A stretch of 64,000 nucleotides of DNA, taken from NCBI RefSeq assembly GCF_014201905.1, contig NZ_JACHFM010000005.1:1-64000 (forward strand). The letters are read 5' to 3'. The DNA comes from Amaricoccus macauensis. Lineage in GTDB: Bacteria; Pseudomonadota; Alphaproteobacteria; Rhodobacterales; Rhodobacteraceae. Within the stretch, counting starts at the first letter, position 1. Each line of letters opens with the position of its first letter. The position numbers and the translations under genes were made by a program. Below the pieces are notes generated by a model. That model had not been told where the DNA came from. It worked only from the letters and a program-made list of their open reading frames with translations, and did no database searches. This document shows positions 31,531 through 36,800 of the stretch, one piece after another.

Positions 31531-31552
31531 CACGGGCGGATCACGGGCGGAT
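31531..31552 (-). repeat. 11-bp tandem duplication at the btaB stop
   Basis: CACGGGCGGAT occurs twice head to tail (31531-31541 and 31542-31552, plus strand). It covers the last codons and the stop of btaB, so a second copy of the C-terminal codons and stop lies just beyond the real stop. Probably replication slippage. Confidence 0.65.
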
Positions 31553-32185
31553 CACGACACCATACTGGGCGTAGTCGCGAAACAGCGATCGCCAGCGCAC
31601 GCGGCCACCGAGCGACGTGGCGGCCCGCTCAAGCGCCGGGTGAAGATCAGCGCGCGGCGTCACGTGAAACTTGCCCAGCCATGCGCGCAGCCCGGTGCGG
31701 AACCAGCCCGGCAGGCGCGACTGCTCCGAAAAGTCGACGACGTGCAGCTCTCCCGCCGGCGCGAGGCAACGCGTCGCCATGTCGAGCGCGCGCTCCCAGT
31801 CCGGGATCATCGAGACGGAATAGGAGAGGACCACCCGATCGAACGTCGCGACACCGAACAGCGCCTGCGGATCGAAGTCGCAGGCGTCGGCGGCGGCAAG
31901 ACGCGCCCGGTCGCCGAGCTTGGCCCGCGCCGAGCGCAGCATTTCCTCGGAAATGTCGAGGCCGTGGAGCGACGCCCCGGGACAGGCCCGCGCGATATGG
32001 TGCAGGTTCCGCCCGGTGCCGCAGGCAATTTCCAGCACGCGCCCGCCCTGGGGCACGCGAAGCTCCCCGATCAGGTGATCGCGTCCGAGCAGGTACCACG
32101 CGCGGGTCAGGTCGTAGATCCGGCGCTGATGGCGGTAGATGCCGTCCATCAGCGCCGCGTGGCTCCGGGTCTCCGCGGCGATCAT
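31541..32185 (-). CDS. btaB: Betaine lipid N-methyltransferase BtaB
   Basis: A 214-residue class I SAM-dependent methyltransferase: YRHQRRIYDLTRAWYLLGRD at the N-terminus, SAM-binding LEIACGTGRN (51-60), then LHGLDISEEML and VVLSYSVSMIPDW. It matches BtaB, which trimethylates diacylglycerylhomoserine to the betaine lipid DGTS at the membrane. The ATG overlaps the btaA stop as ATGA, so the two are coupled. An 11-bp tandem repeat spans its stop codon. Confidence 0.92.
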   Translation of the reverse strand: MIAAETRSHAALMDGIYRHQRRIYDLTRAWYLLGRDHLIGELRVPQGGRVLEIACGTGRNLHHIARACPGASLHGLDISEEMLRSARAKLGDRARLAAADACDFDPQALFGVATFDRVVLSYSVSMIPDWERALDMATRCLAPAGELHVVDFSEQSRLPGWFRTGLRAWLGKFHVTPRADLHPALERAATSLGGRVRWRSLFRDYAQYGVVIRP

Positions 32186-33417
32186 GCGGTGCGCCTGTAG
32201 AGGTGGACGCCGCCGTAGATCGCCGAACGATCGGCGGCGAAGGCGGTGGCGGAAGCCTCCGAGTCATAGTGCCAGCGGTCGAGGATCGAGGGCGACACAC
32301 GGCCCGGCAGGATGTCGGGCGTGCCACCGGTGCGGAACAGAACCCGCGCGCCCGGTGCCGCCGTGCGGTCGATCTCGGCCCAGAGGGCGTTCAGCTGCGC
32401 GTCGCTCATCCAGTCCTGCGCGTCGAGCAGCACATAGGCGTCGAGCGATCCCGCCAGCATTCCGGCCAGCTGGTCGGTCAGGGAGCGGTTGACGATCGAA
32501 CCGCGATGCGCCGCCTCGCGCAGCGTCTCGAACTGCCCGGCCTGCAGATAGGGCGGCAGCGCGCCACCCGGCCGCTGATCGTAGTGGCGGGCGAACGCCT
32601 GCCACGCGAAGTAGTTCTCGCGGATCGGAAAGTCGCACATCAGCCGCCGCGTCCGCTCGCGCAGCACCGGCAGGACGGAACCCGCGCCATCGGCGGCGAG
32701 CTTGTCGTACTGGGCGGGCGGAATGCCGAGGCCGAAGAGCGACGCGCGCTGCGCCGCCAGCCCGCGCACCAGCCGCTTCTCGAAGAGCGGCGCGATCCGG
32801 GCGTCGAAGAACGCCGCCTGCGCTTCGAGGCTTTCCGCCTGGAGCAGCGGCCGGAAGTCCACGCCGGCCAGTCGGGTGATGCCGTGGAGCGTGCCGATAA
32901 AGCGTCCCAGCGCCCCGTGGCGGTAGAAGCCCCGGGCGAACATCTCGATCCGACGCCGGCGGAGCGGCCCGCGGCCCGCCCACCAGGCGCGGGACTCCGC
33001 GTCGAGGACGGGCGCGATCAGCTCGTCATAGCGCGCAACGTTCTCCCGGCGATCCGCCCGGGCAAAGAAGTCGTGGAACGCCGCATGATCGGGCAGCGCC
33101 CGCGCCGCCGCGAGCTTCAGCCGCCCGAGCGCGACATGCGCGGGCGAGAGGTCCACCGCCGTCACCGAGCCGGGGCCGGCGGTCAGATAGGACATCATGT
33201 TGCAGCCGCCGGAGGCGATGCAGATCACATGCTCATCGGGCGCGAGGCCCAGGGCGGCCATGTCCGCCACCGGGTCCTCCCAGATCTGCGGATAGACCAG
33301 CCCCTCGAACATGCGGGCGAAGACCGACTCGAGCACGCTCGTGGCGGTGAGACGACGGGTCTCGCTGACGGCGGTACGGATCTGCGCCGAGGGCGCCGGA
33401 CTTGCGATCTCGGTCAT
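32182..33417 (-). CDS. btaA: BtaA, SAM:diacylglycerol 3-amino-3-carboxypropyl transferase
   Basis: A 411-residue protein of the BtaA family: LVYPQIWEDPVADMAALGL, the SAM-binding CIASGGCNMMSYL (about 66-78) with VDLSPAHVALGRLK, and later MCDFPIRENYFAWQAFARHY and LLDAQDWMSDAQLNALW. It transfers the 3-amino-3-carboxypropyl group of SAM to diacylglycerol, giving diacylglycerylhomoserine, the first step to DGTS. Its ATG shares a base with the stop of the plcP-like gene (TGATG), coupling diacylglycerol release to its consumption. Typical family length and motifs; the start MTEIASP is fixed by the coupling. Confidence 0.93.
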   Translation of the reverse strand: MTEIASPAPSAQIRTAVSETRRLTATSVLESVFARMFEGLVYPQIWEDPVADMAALGLAPDEHVICIASGGCNMMSYLTAGPGSVTAVDLSPAHVALGRLKLAAARALPDHAAFHDFFARADRRENVARYDELIAPVLDAESRAWWAGRGPLRRRRIEMFARGFYRHGALGRFIGTLHGITRLAGVDFRPLLQAESLEAQAAFFDARIAPLFEKRLVRGLAAQRASLFGLGIPPAQYDKLAADGAGSVLPVLRERTRRLMCDFPIRENYFAWQAFARHYDQRPGGALPPYLQAGQFETLREAAHRGSIVNRSLTDQLAGMLAGSLDAYVLLDAQDWMSDAQLNALWAEIDRTAAPGARVLFRTGGTPDILPGRVSPSILDRWHYDSEASATAFAADRSAIYGGVHLYRRTA

Positions 33418-34220
33418 CACGCGGCCTCTGCGTTCTGGCGACGGCGGCGCATCAGGCGCGGGTGACTGTTCGCGAGGGCGCGGCGACGCCGGACCGCCGC
33501 CCAGTCGAGCAGGTGCAGCGAGCCATCCTCGCGCTCCACCACCGCCGTGCAACTCTCGACCCAGTCGCCGGTGTTGACGTACTGGATGCCTTCGATCTCA
33601 CGCAGCGCGGCGGTGTGGATGTGGCCGCAGACGATGCCGTCGTAGCCGTGCTCGCGCGCTTCCTTCGCGAGCGCCGCCTCGAAGGCGCTCACGTGGCTCA
33701 CCGCGCGCTTCACCTGCGCCTTCGCCCACTTCGAGAGCGACCAGTAGGGTCCGCCCCAGAGCCGGCGCACGCGGTTGAAGAGAATATTGGCCTGGATCGC
33801 GAGGTCGTAGGCCCGGTCGCCCACGTGCGCGAGCCACTTCGCGTGCACCACCACTGCGTCGAACTCATCGCCGTGCGTCACGAGATAGCGCCGGCCGTCG
33901 GCTGTCACATAGTCGGCGCGCGCCATGACCTCGATGCCACCGAAGTGCGCCCCGAGGCAGGAGCGGAACATCTCGTCGTGGTTTCCGGGCACGAACACCA
34001 TCCTGGCCCCCGCCGCAGCCTTGCCGAGCAGCGCGTGAACGACGGCGGTGTGACTCTCGGCCCAGTTCAGGCCGCGATGCATCTGCCAGCCATCGTAGAT
34101 GTCGCCGACGAGGTAGTAGGTCTCAGCCTCATGGCAGGACAGGAAATCGAGCAGCAACTCGGCCTGGCACCCGCGGGTACCGAGGTGCACGTCGGAAATC
34201 AGGATCGTCCGATACTTCAA
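33417..34220 (-). CDS. plcP: PlcP-like metallophosphoesterase (phospholipase C for lipid remodelling)
   Basis: A 267-residue calcineurin-fold phosphoesterase with all metal motifs: DVHLG (Asp10, His12), GDIYDGW (Asp40), GNHDE (Asn80, His81), THGDEFD (His116) and CGHIHT (His200, His202). Automatic pipelines usually label such proteins UDP-2,3-diacylglucosamine diphosphatase. In Sinorhizobium and marine bacteria a member of this group, PlcP, releases diacylglycerol from phospholipids during phosphate starvation. Its place directly before btaA supports PlcP here, by inference. The start codon is TTG, with GAGAGG eight bases upstream. A Pho-box-like array precedes it. Confidence 0.85.
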   Translation of the reverse strand: MKYRTILISDVHLGTRGCQAELLLDFLSCHEAETYYLVGDIYDGWQMHRGLNWAESHTAVVHALLGKAAAGARMVFVPGNHDEMFRSCLGAHFGGIEVMARADYVTADGRRYLVTHGDEFDAVVVHAKWLAHVGDRAYDLAIQANILFNRVRRLWGGPYWSLSKWAKAQVKRAVSHVSAFEAALAKEAREHGYDGIVCGHIHTAALREIEGIQYVNTGDWVESCTAVVEREDGSLHLLDWAAVRRRRALANSHPRLMRRRRQNAEAA

Positions 34221-34268
34221 GCCGCCAACCTCTCAACCGGGGTTCCGGATGCGGTCTAGCGACGGCTC

Positions 34269-34308
34269 TTGACCGATTTGTGATTGGAAGTTGACGGAAT
34301 TCTGAAGG
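34269..34308 (-). promoter_or_regulatory. Four-unit Pho-box-like direct repeat upstream of plcP-btaA-btaB
   Basis: Read on the minus strand, CCTTCAG (34308-34302), CCGTCAA (34297-34291), CAATCAC (34286-34280) and CGGTCAA (34275-34269) follow each other with 4-bp spacers, an exact 11-bp period. All share C-N-N-T-C-A-N, the core of the PhoB half-site CTGTCAT, which also repeats every 11 bp. The last unit is 10 bp from a weak -10 candidate TAGACC (34258-34253) and 49 bp from the TTG start. PhoB control is inferred from pattern and gene content. Confidence 0.6.
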
Positions 34309-34310
34309 TG

Positions 34311-35753
34311 TCAGCCCGGGAACCAGCAGCTCCGCGGCACCCGGTAGGCCGCGAAGTCGGTCGTCACGTAGCCTTCTGCCGGACGCCAGCGCGCAACCTC
34401 GGTTCCCGGGGTACCACCGGGGCGGCAGTCGGGCGGCTCTCCCCGACCGACAAACAGCACCTCGCCCGGGCCGGGCGGCAACGGATGCTTCTGGGCGTAG
34501 TGGTGCGGCGGAAAGCCGTCGACCGGCTCGGCGTAGATCGTGAGGTCGGAATCGCGCAGCGTGTAGAAGAGATCGGCGAGAATATCGCGATTGGTGGCGA
34601 CGATTGCCTCGAGCCCCTGTTCGCGGGCGAGGCGCTCGAACTCGTGGGTCGCGGCGGTCCGCCCCACGTAGCGATAGAGCGCGAGCTGGTCTCCGAGGCG
34701 GAAACTGTCGGCGACGGTGGTCGCGACCGGCAGCGCGAGGGCGATCGCGCCATTGAGGACAAGCCCGGCCGCGAGCCAGCGCGGCCGGGGCGCCAGAACG
34801 GCGCTGGCGAGCACCGCCGCGGCCACATGTCCCGCGGCCGCCCAGTTGCCGTGCGCCCCGGCGAGGATCGCCTGCACCGAGACAATGAGAAACGTCGGCA
34901 GCGACAGGAACGCCAGAAGCCGCGCCCGGCTGTCCGACACCACGCGCCCGAGACCGAGGATATAGGCGGCGAAGAACACCGGCCCCGCGACACCGAACTG
35001 GGCGCCGATGAAGTCGAGAAGCTTGATCGGATAGAAACCGGCACCGCCTTCAAGCTTGGTGTTGTCCGCGGTGTGCTGCAGCGTCGTGAAGCCGTTCTGC
35101 AGGTTCCAGAAGATGTTCGGAGAGAGGATCAGCAAGCCGACCACGAGGGCAATGACCGCGTCCCGGCGCGCGATCCGCGCCTGCGGCATCACCAGGGCGG
35201 CAAGGACCGCGGAGATCGGAAAGTAGATCATCGCGTACTTCGAGAGCATCCCGACGCCGACCGCCGCGCCGAGGACGATCGCCCAGCCGATCGACCGGCG
35301 CTCGGCGAGGGTGATGAACGCAAGGATCGCCAGCGCGAAGCACGCGAGCATGGGTGTATCGGTCGAGACAAGAAGACTCGCGACGGCAACCGCGGGAAAG
35401 AGCGAAAAGCCGAAGCCGGCGACGGCGCCCGCGCGCGCGCCGTAGAGGCGCCGGGCGATCAGCCCGACGACGACCGAGGTGAAGGCCCAGATCAGCGGCA
35501 GCGGCAGACGGATCCAGAATGGCGAGTCAGACCCGATCGACGTCGACAGCCGAAGGATCCAGGCGATCAGCGGCGGCTTCGAATAATAACCCCACGCGAG
35601 CTGCTGCCCCCAGAACCAGTATTGCGCATCATCGACGTAGAGATCCGCCCGATCGAACGGCAGAAACGCCATCCGCCAGAGGGTGATCGCCCCGATCGCG
35701 AAAAGGCTGAGCACAAAGGCCCGGTTTCCGTCACTCAGTTCGTTGCGGTGCAT
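34311..35753 (-). CDS. GT39-family membrane glycosyltransferase
   Basis: A 480-residue multi-pass membrane protein of the PMT/ArnT-like GT39 superfamily. The first periplasmic loop carries the acidic motif LYVDDAQYWFWGQQLAWGYYSKPPLIAW, with the DDAQY (D-E/D) pair typical of catalysis, followed by about ten helices and a C-terminal soluble tail. Such enzymes move a sugar from a polyprenyl-phosphate carrier to lipid A, lipids or proteins on the periplasmic side. The 3' end lies 2 bp before the Pho-box-like array, and its start overlaps the LAB_N gene by 23 bp. It forms an ArnC/ArnT-style set with the two genes upstream. Confidence 0.88.
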   Translation of the reverse strand: MHRNELSDGNRAFVLSLFAIGAITLWRMAFLPFDRADLYVDDAQYWFWGQQLAWGYYSKPPLIAWILRLSTSIGSDSPFWIRLPLPLIWAFTSVVVGLIARRLYGARAGAVAGFGFSLFPAVAVASLLVSTDTPMLACFALAILAFITLAERRSIGWAIVLGAAVGVGMLSKYAMIYFPISAVLAALVMPQARIARRDAVIALVVGLLILSPNIFWNLQNGFTTLQHTADNTKLEGGAGFYPIKLLDFIGAQFGVAGPVFFAAYILGLGRVVSDSRARLLAFLSLPTFLIVSVQAILAGAHGNWAAAGHVAAAVLASAVLAPRPRWLAAGLVLNGAIALALPVATTVADSFRLGDQLALYRYVGRTAATHEFERLAREQGLEAIVATNRDILADLFYTLRDSDLTIYAEPVDGFPPHHYAQKHPLPPGPGEVLFVGRGEPPDCRPGGTPGTEVARWRPAEGYVTTDFAAYRVPRSCWFPG

Positions 35754-36033
35754 GAATCAGCCAGAGATTGCGAGCGTAGACCATGAGACCCATGGCCTGC
35801 CCCAGCATGAACACCGGATCGCGGCGATAGATTGCGTAGGCGAGGAGCACGATCCCGCCACCGACCGAGAAGTACCAGAAGGCCACGGGCATGACCGACT
35901 GCCGCGCCCGCTCGGACATGATCCACTGGACCAGGAAGCGCATGGAAAACAGCGCCTGCCCGACGAAGCCGACCATCACCCACCAGAATTCGCCCCAATG
36001 GTCGACGTGGAAGATGGTAAAGACCGCCTCCAT
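35731..36033 (-). CDS. Lipid-A-disaccharide synthase N-terminal-domain protein (LAB_N)
   Basis: A 100-residue protein with three hydrophobic helices, matching the LAB_N family: WGEFWWVMVGFVGQALFSMRFLVQWIMSE then VMPVAFWYFSVGGGIVLLAYAIYRRDPVFMLGQ. The family is small and integral to the membrane; its sequence occurs fused to or beside lipid-A or polyprenyl-sugar genes. It may act like a small flippase partner (ArnE/F-like), by inference. It lies between GT2 (its ATG shares a base with the GT2 stop) and GT39 (23-bp overlap), so all three are tightly coupled. Confidence 0.85.
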   Translation of the reverse strand: MEAVFTIFHVDHWGEFWWVMVGFVGQALFSMRFLVQWIMSERARQSVMPVAFWYFSVGGGIVLLAYAIYRRDPVFMLGQAMGLMVYARNLWLIHAPQRTE

Positions 36034-36800
36034 CAGGCGTCGCCCTCGACCGGCGCGAGCTCCATGGGGCGGGCCTTCCGGCGCCGCTTGATCAGCCACA
36101 TGACGCCGAGCAGATCCCAGACGCCGGCGATCGCCCGGCTGATGTTGGCATAGTTCGATTTCCCCGCATGCCGGGCGTCATGCGCCACGTCCACGTGAAT
36201 CGTCCGCCACCCGTCACGCGCCACCAGCGCCGGCAGATAGCGGTGCATGTGATCGAAGTAGGGCAGGCCGAGGAACACGTCGCGTGGCAGAAGCTTCAGC
36301 CCGCAGCCGGTATCGCGGGTACCATCGTTCAGCAACCGCTGACGGATACCGTTGGCCCAGCGCGAGGCAATCCGCTTCGAGGCGGTGTCCTTCCGCCCGA
36401 CCCGCTGGCCCGCAACGAGACCGACGCCCTCCGGGAACGCGGTGCCTTCGAGGCGGGCGACGAGTTTGCGGATCTCCATGGGAGGGTTCTGCCCGTCGCC
36501 ATCGAGCGTGCAGATCACCCGGCCATGGGCGAAACTCACGCCGCTCGCGATCGCCGCGGACTGCCCGGCGCTGTTGCGGTGCTGCACCAGGCGCAGCATC
36601 GGCAATTCCTGACGCAACGCCAGCACCCGGTGAGCGGTGTCATCGGTCGAGCCGTCATCCACGAAGATTATCTCAAAGGGGGCGAGGTCGGCGCATGCAG
36701 CCGCAATGCCCTCAGCGACGAAGACGACGTTCTCAGCCTCGTTCTTGAGCGGCACCACCACGGAAAGCCAAGGCGCGACCCGATCCAGTTTCGACGCCAT
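36033..36800 (-). CDS. GT2-family glycosyltransferase (dolichol-phosphate mannose synthase-like)
   Basis: A 255-residue protein: WLSVVVPLKNEAENV and EIIFVDDGSTDDTAHRV are the nucleotide-sugar motifs, CTLDGDGQNPPMEI is the DxD metal site, and GCGLKLLPRDVFLGLPYFDHMHRY matches ArnC / DPM1-type synthases. It would load a sugar from a nucleotide donor onto undecaprenyl phosphate at the cytoplasmic face. GT39 would then transfer that sugar outside. First gene of the run GT2 - LAB_N - GT39. Confidence 0.9.
   Translation of the reverse strand: MASKLDRVAPWLSVVVPLKNEAENVVFVAEGIAAACADLAPFEIIFVDDGSTDDTAHRVLALRQELPMLRLVQHRNSAGQSAAIASGVSFAHGRVICTLDGDGQNPPMEIRKLVARLEGTAFPEGVGLVAGQRVGRKDTASKRIASRWANGIRQRLLNDGTRDTGCGLKLLPRDVFLGLPYFDHMHRYLPALVARDGWRTIHVDVAHDARHAGKSNYANISRAIAGVWDLLGVMWLIKRRRKARPMELAPVEGDA

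Follow-up and report, generated by a model that had tools for sequence, protein, structure and literature searches.

A tandem array of four half-sites ahead of plcP-btaA-btaB in Amaricoccus macauensis, a probable PhoB-dependent promoter

We describe an array of four tandem half-sites lying ahead of the plcP-btaA-btaB operon of Amaricoccus macauensis, in a stretch of 64,000 nucleotides that was analysed as a whole (hereafter the ‘window’), and propose that this array is highly likely to be a PhoB-dependent promoter of the operon. The array itself is real; the proposal draws its support from it, from its spacing to a predicted -10 element, from the conservation of such sites at plcP in relatives, and from the presence in the genome of a phoB gene and of similar sites at pstS and phoU. 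The sequence-only reading that had first drawn attention to the region is right in fact, and its interpretation is very probably right too. Putative Pho boxes have already been published for plcP gene clusters, as has the gene order plcP-btaA-btaB (PMC4796936), such that the window represents a further example, with a fourfold layout that is unusual.

The array and its genomic setting

An array of four half-sites fitting C-N-N-T-C-A-N with an 11-bp period had been described from the letters alone, and it is indeed present on the minus strand, at precisely 34269-34308 (running from 34308 to 34269 as CCTTCAG, CCGTCAA, CAATCAC and CGGTCAA, with a period of exactly 11 bp). The position claimed for it, between the stop codon of the preceding gene and plcP-btaA-btaB, is borne out both by the gap and by the gene order; the array is housed in a 90-bp intergenic gap, with the neighbour's stop codon at 34311-34313 and the TTG start of plcP at 34220-34218. 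Read toward plcP, the sequence runs CCTTCAG aatt CCGTCAA cttc CAATCAC aaat CGGTCAA, followed by gagccgtcgc and then by TAGACC. The features of the region are as follows:

34311..35753, minus strand: upstream neighbour, PMT_2 glycosyltransferase (PF13231, 104.4 bits); stops 2 bp short of the array and lies outside the unit
34302..34308, minus strand: half-site 1, CCTTCAG, distal pair (1.8 bits)
34291..34297, minus strand: half-site 2, CCGTCAA, distal pair (6.5 bits, the highest of the four)
34280..34286, minus strand: half-site 3, CAATCAC, proximal pair (1.6 bits)
34269..34275, minus strand: half-site 4, CGGTCAA, proximal pair (3.6 bits); would stand in for a -35 element
34253..34258, minus strand: predicted -10 element, TAGACC, exactly 10 bp past half-site 4
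33417..34220, minus strand: plcP-like metallophosphoesterase of the phospholipase C type, TTG start (PF00149, 46.7 bits)
32182..33417, minus strand: btaA (DUF3419), diacylglyceryl-homoserine synthase (PF11899, 340 bits)
31541..32185, minus strand: btaB, N-methyltransferase (methyltransferase domains)

Taken one by one, the half-sites are poor matches: each has one or two mismatches to the six letters of CTGTCA, and the seventh position of the four units reads G, A, C and A, whereas C or T is almost always found there in the first half-site of relatives. As a set they are rare. In the whole 4.83 Mb genome the CNNTCA pattern in four units is seen a single time (reversed-pattern control, none), and 40,000 dinucleotide shuffles of the 90-bp gap never produced it; a looser criterion, formulated post hoc (any period from 9 to 13, four units, no fewer than four of the seven columns invariant), was satisfied by 11 of the 40,000.

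In gene order and domains the operon fits the type 1 plcP-btaA-btaB cluster, and relatives likewise have a btaB match after btaA, except at L030, where the locus ends. The name PlcP for the first gene rests on this order and on 64.7% identity to the counterpart in the Roseobacter sp. MED193 record (L092); the LpxH equivalog models of NCBIfam give it 48.7 of 134 and 45 of 190.35 bits, far under their cut-offs. Upstream on the same strand, 34311-36800 encodes a GT2 glycosyltransferase, a LAB_N (lipid A biosynthesis N-terminal domain) protein and the PMT_2 glycosyltransferase, a set that we take to resemble lipid A modification of the ArnC/ArnT type; the lipid-replacement operon comes directly after it.

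PhoB is encoded in the genome at equivalog level (TIGR02154, 349 bits against a cut-off of 296.2), and its DNA-binding domain aligns with that of Escherichia coli PhoB (1gxp) over 93 residues; 14 stretches in the genome match the OmpR-type DNA-binding domain. The phoB gene adjoins phoU, whilst two pst operons are located elsewhere; at L065:4173-5634, where phoU and phoB lie away from both pst operons, the promoter has three in-register half-sites.

A Pho promoter motif at plcP and btaA in relatives

We assembled 110 btaA loci besides that of the window, namely 29 of the best 30 matches in the family, one match in the genus, and the best 80 of at least 579 from named genomes; the family search matched 57 of 394 genomes at all, many of them weakly. 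Three loci were left out before training (L003 and L131, for want of a usable plcP start, and L162, which is short), and the remaining 107 upstream regions came to 100 once near-copies had been removed, 49 of them plcP-first and 51 btaA-first, with the window excluded. By record title the btaA-first loci belong mostly to other taxonomic orders, and they take in L105, with a distant plcP-like upstream neighbour (33.6% identity); the start codons of relatives are estimates from tblastn ends.

Expectation maximisation from the seed CTGTCAT-N4-CTGTCAT yielded CCGTCAC-N4-CTGTCAC for the plcP promoters (n=49; endpoint cCGTCACAttaCTGTcAC), and a like motif with the same spacing for the btaA-first set (n=51; endpoint CCGTCATCAaACCGTCAC). 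The log likelihood ratio was 258.6 for the plcP set, where none of 30 shuffled sets exceeded 83.0, and 294.9 for the btaA set, against 90.2 for shuffled sequence. A reversed seed reached 226.5 and 226.7 respectively, and random seeds exceeded the Pho seed in five of 12 runs on the plcP set and none of 12 on the btaA set, so that these ratios constitute a test against shuffled sequence and not one of the motif's uniqueness; the higher scores of the random seeds are likely to stem from related sequences and from the start-codon region.

Scored with each promoter left out in turn, 46 of the 49 plcP promoters and 43 of the 51 btaA-first promoters reach 10 bits or more, and in 48 of the 49 the best plcP site starts 59-90 nt ahead of the estimated start codon. 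The dinucleotide TA follows the pair at exactly 10 bp in 31 of these 46 and 28 of these 43 promoters, against a background of 2.3%; this spacing played no part in the motif search, and is as expected if the box replaces a -35 element. The conservation looked for ahead of orthologous plcP genes is thereby found, as this type of site in 46 of 49 promoters and as a fixed -10 spacing that the window has as well. An independent training set built from pst promoters was attempted and abandoned: the PstS query matched eight of 120 family genomes, its own included, with only three others at E <1e-40.

The window's own match to this model is weak. Its distal pair (units 1-2) reaches 8.3 bits (p 0.025 with 5,000 shuffles, 0.018 with 1,000), and 47 of the 49 relatives score higher when left out; a score above shuffled sequence, as would be required of a PhoB site, is thus obtained with a matrix from 49 other plcP promoters, if only weakly. 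The proximal pair (units 3-4) has 5.1 bits by the same plcP-trained matrix. With the window's own base composition as background, the distal pair ranks 8th of 127,966 positions. The proximal pair alone is at the standard position, with TAGACC exactly 10 bp on, and is the top pair-plus-TA site on both strands of the 64 kb (127,966 positions) at 9.6 bits, with just one other at 4 bits or more (5.3 bits); since these two values were computed with the window background, they should not be set against the 5.1 bits given above.

Elsewhere in the genome, the plcP matrix finds one strong pair at pstS (13.5 bits, p 0.003, with TAAAGC at +10), a site at phoU (11.9 bits, p 0.006, no TA at +10) and another at the second pstS (6.9 bits, p 0.049, no TA at +10). 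A stricter pattern, GTCA/YGTCA with TA, has two matches in the genome, at pstS and within a long open frame (L172), against none for the control. Matching CTGTCANNNNNCTGTCA with two mismatches was rejected as too loose for defining a regulon: the pattern gave 151 matches and its reversed control 122.

Four-unit promoters in the genus and the family

To count four-unit promoters we scanned all promoter positions for four in-register units each scoring above zero. Single pairs predominate outside the genus, where 42 of 47 promoters lack a four-unit chain; the other five are L025, L135, L099, L103 and L096, the chain in the last lying away from the main site. Nor do the 46 plcP promoters in general carry extra in-register half-sites (two at -11, two at -22 and four at +22, with up to six off-register), whereas the 43 btaA-first promoters have ten at -11, seven at -22 and nine at +22 (other offsets, 0-5).

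Within the genus, plcP is present in four of 11 genomes, and three of the four have four units ahead of it (the window, G394 and G395; G130 has two). Both G394 and G395 retain four units despite differing half-site sequences: in G394 the array reads CGGTCAT, CCGTCGC, TCGTCGG and CCGTCGC, followed by TAGACA at the window's spacing. The gene upstream of plcP also differs, being PMT_2 in the window and pyrF-like (named by eye) in G394.

A pattern of four TCA units spaced 11 bp apart, together with TA, was run against all 11 genomes of the genus with up to one mismatch and returned seven matches against four for the reversed control, a small raw excess, so that weight falls on the genes downstream. 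The seven precede plcP (the window and G395), a DSP/PTP phosphatase (G000), phoD (G394), phoX (G396), a DUF900 hydrolase (G130) and no obvious target (G401); five of them are therefore ahead of plcP, phoD, phoX or a phosphatase. The G394 plcP array was missed by this pattern and came from the promoter comparison. As TA formed part of the pattern searched, it counts as independent support only at the plcP sites of the window and G394, and not at those of phoD, phoX, the phosphatase and G395.

In five of six four-unit promoters of the genus the distal pair outscores the proximal pair by the plcP-trained matrix. Besides the window (8.3 against 5.1 bits), this holds for phoD (G394; 12.1 and 2.1 bits), G395 plcP (9.3 and 6.3 bits), G394 plcP (12.7 and 2.1 bits, in a promoter that belonged to the training set) and the phosphatase promoter (G000; 12.0 and 5.0 bits, with the middle pair on top at 16.6). 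The exception is phoX (G396), at 1.0 and 5.9 bits.

Across the 394 family genomes there are 13 exact matches in 11 genomes, against two for the control. The 11 outside the window's genome comprise one ugpB, two tctC, four of GTCATAY type, one hydrolase related to that of G130 (L192) and three others (L187, L188, L190). In another genus, L186 has a four-unit array with TA at +10 ahead of ugpB (NCBIfam equivalog, 571 bits, cut-off 411). Without gene context the four-repeat pattern is not specific to PhoB and is no proof of it, since it also stands ahead of the two tctC genes (L185 and L191, around position 1500), there as four 11-bp TCA repeats, mostly GTCAG, which are perhaps the site of a TctD-type regulator and a look-alike of the Pho box. 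More generally, 11-bp repeats are not PhoB-specific.

Several further arrays were seen in passing. Repeats of TCATAY type with an 11-bp period occur in other genera of the family (L183, L184, L189 and L193, around 1500). At L178:1600-2610 and L192:498-1469, in two genera, lie homologous DUF900 alpha/beta hydrolases (36% identity over 322 positions), each preceded by a four-unit array, that of L178 with one mismatch; these could possibly be Pho-regulated lipases. A four-unit array at L176:1498-1549 (G000:C1:692917-692968; also in L074), with TA at +10 and a better match than the window's, sits between a PmrA/QseB-like regulator-kinase pair, the regulator gene of which reads in two frames, and the DSP/PTP-type phosphatase gene. 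Finally, L076 has a four-unit-like array with TA at +10 on the minus strand, from 2099 to about 2045, 3' of a frame resembling DNA polymerase I (by eye).

Alternative readings and a proposed mechanism

More than one Pho box, that is, more than two half-sites in tandem, is found at the pst and ugp promoters of E. coli. Putative Pho boxes are described in plcP clusters of marine bacteria, with plcP-btaA-btaB (type 1) in Phaeobacter sp. MED193 (PMC4796936); that cluster has the window's gene order, and its site (L092) scores 18.2 bits when left out, with TA at +10, but it consists of one strong pair at the standard position where the window has four weaker half-sites. In Sinorhizobium, expression of btaA and btaB is PhoB regulated, and PhoB activates the genes for DGTS synthesis and PlcP (PMC3972451); regulator and pathway are those that we propose for the window, although rhizobia belong to a different order. 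Among titles and the starts of abstracts, with partial coverage of the literature, we found no tandem or multiple Pho-box arrays at plcP or btaA, and make no claim to priority.

A PhoB site consists of two tandem half-sites with a TGTCA tract (PMC6194859), and the array might accordingly be an ordinary single Pho box in which one pair is functional, the other two half-sites being remnants or chance. The layout of most relatives outside the genus, with one pair ahead of the -10 element (42 of 47 lack a four-unit chain), lends this some weight; set against it are the failure of 40,000 shuffles to produce four units, the persistence of four units at plcP in G394 and G395 while their sequences differ, and the fact that neither of the window's pairs is strong by itself, and we consider it unlikely, if well worth keeping in mind. 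The unequal strength of the two pairs, and the 14 OmpR-type DNA-binding-domain stretches in the genome, could also be taken to indicate a composite site, with one pair bound by PhoB and the other by a second OmpR-family regulator such that two signals are combined. There is a precedent in the quadripartite PhoB/TctD boxes of Pseudomonas aeruginosa, where a PhoB box extended by 22 nt takes in a TctD motif at six promoters (PMC4513871); the second box there likewise falls within the 22-nt extension, but the two regulators are different ones. In the window the units look like versions of a single motif, with no second regulator's motif assignable, and TCAC recurs in all four units at the phosphatase promoter of L176, which makes a composite site improbable.

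More improbable still is that PhoB has no part in the site, which would then be entirely that of a different OmpR-family regulator (TctD-like or PmrA/QseB-like). This reading would accommodate the 11-bp TCA repeats ahead of two tctC genes (L185 and L191) and beside the PmrA/QseB-like pair (L074), but has to contend with sites of the plcP matrix at the phosphate genes pstS, phoU, phoD and phoX, with a site in 46 of 49 plcP promoters, and with PhoB control of rhizobial plcP, btaA and btaB (PMC3972451). As for chance resemblance, which the matrix p-value on its own (just ~0.02) might invite, it can scarcely explain a pattern that is unique in the genome, that shares its -10 spacing with relatives and that is conserved upstream of orthologues. 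A PhoB site is thus the reading we prefer, and the matrix, the conservation at orthologues and the shared -10 spacing all speak for the regulator named in the sequence-only reading.

Synthesising these observations, we propose a scheme for the action of PhoB at this promoter. Upon phosphate starvation, phosphorylated PhoB is predicted to bind the direct repeats as dimers, with units 3-4, which end 10 bp before TAGACC, replacing a -35 element; PhoB bound there could recruit RNA polymerase. We suggest that the distal pair (units 1-2) loads first and aids the binding of a second dimer, an order proposed on the grounds that the proximal pair is a poor match and the distal pair a better one. PlcP would then strip phosphate head groups from phospholipids, with BtaA and BtaB making the phosphorus-free betaine lipid DGTS from the resulting diacylglycerol. 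In this scheme we infer PhoB binding, a contribution from all four units, their loading order, cooperative binding across them and the phosphate response.

We also venture a wider, rather doubtful suggestion for the genus: that some of its Pho promoters (plcP, phoD, phoX, phosphatase) form a four-half-site class, with a stronger distal pair in five of six and a weaker proximal pair directly next to the -10 element, as opposed to the strong single pair at pstS of the same genome. Membrane-lipid replacement and the phosphatases might then respond late, steeply and cooperatively (or to two regulators), once phosphate uptake is already on. The sequences suggest, without proving, that lipid replacement may require more active PhoB than phosphate uptake does. 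Within this one genome a strong single box at pstS stands beside a weak double box at plcP, a contrast that makes a division into early and late Pho genes directly testable.

Finally, the sharp alphaproteobacterial Pho promoter model that emerges (CCGTCAC-N4-CTGTCAC, 10 bp, TA) could serve in the search for Pho regulons, and the predicted control of betaine-lipid replacement by phosphate starvation would now extend to this genus.
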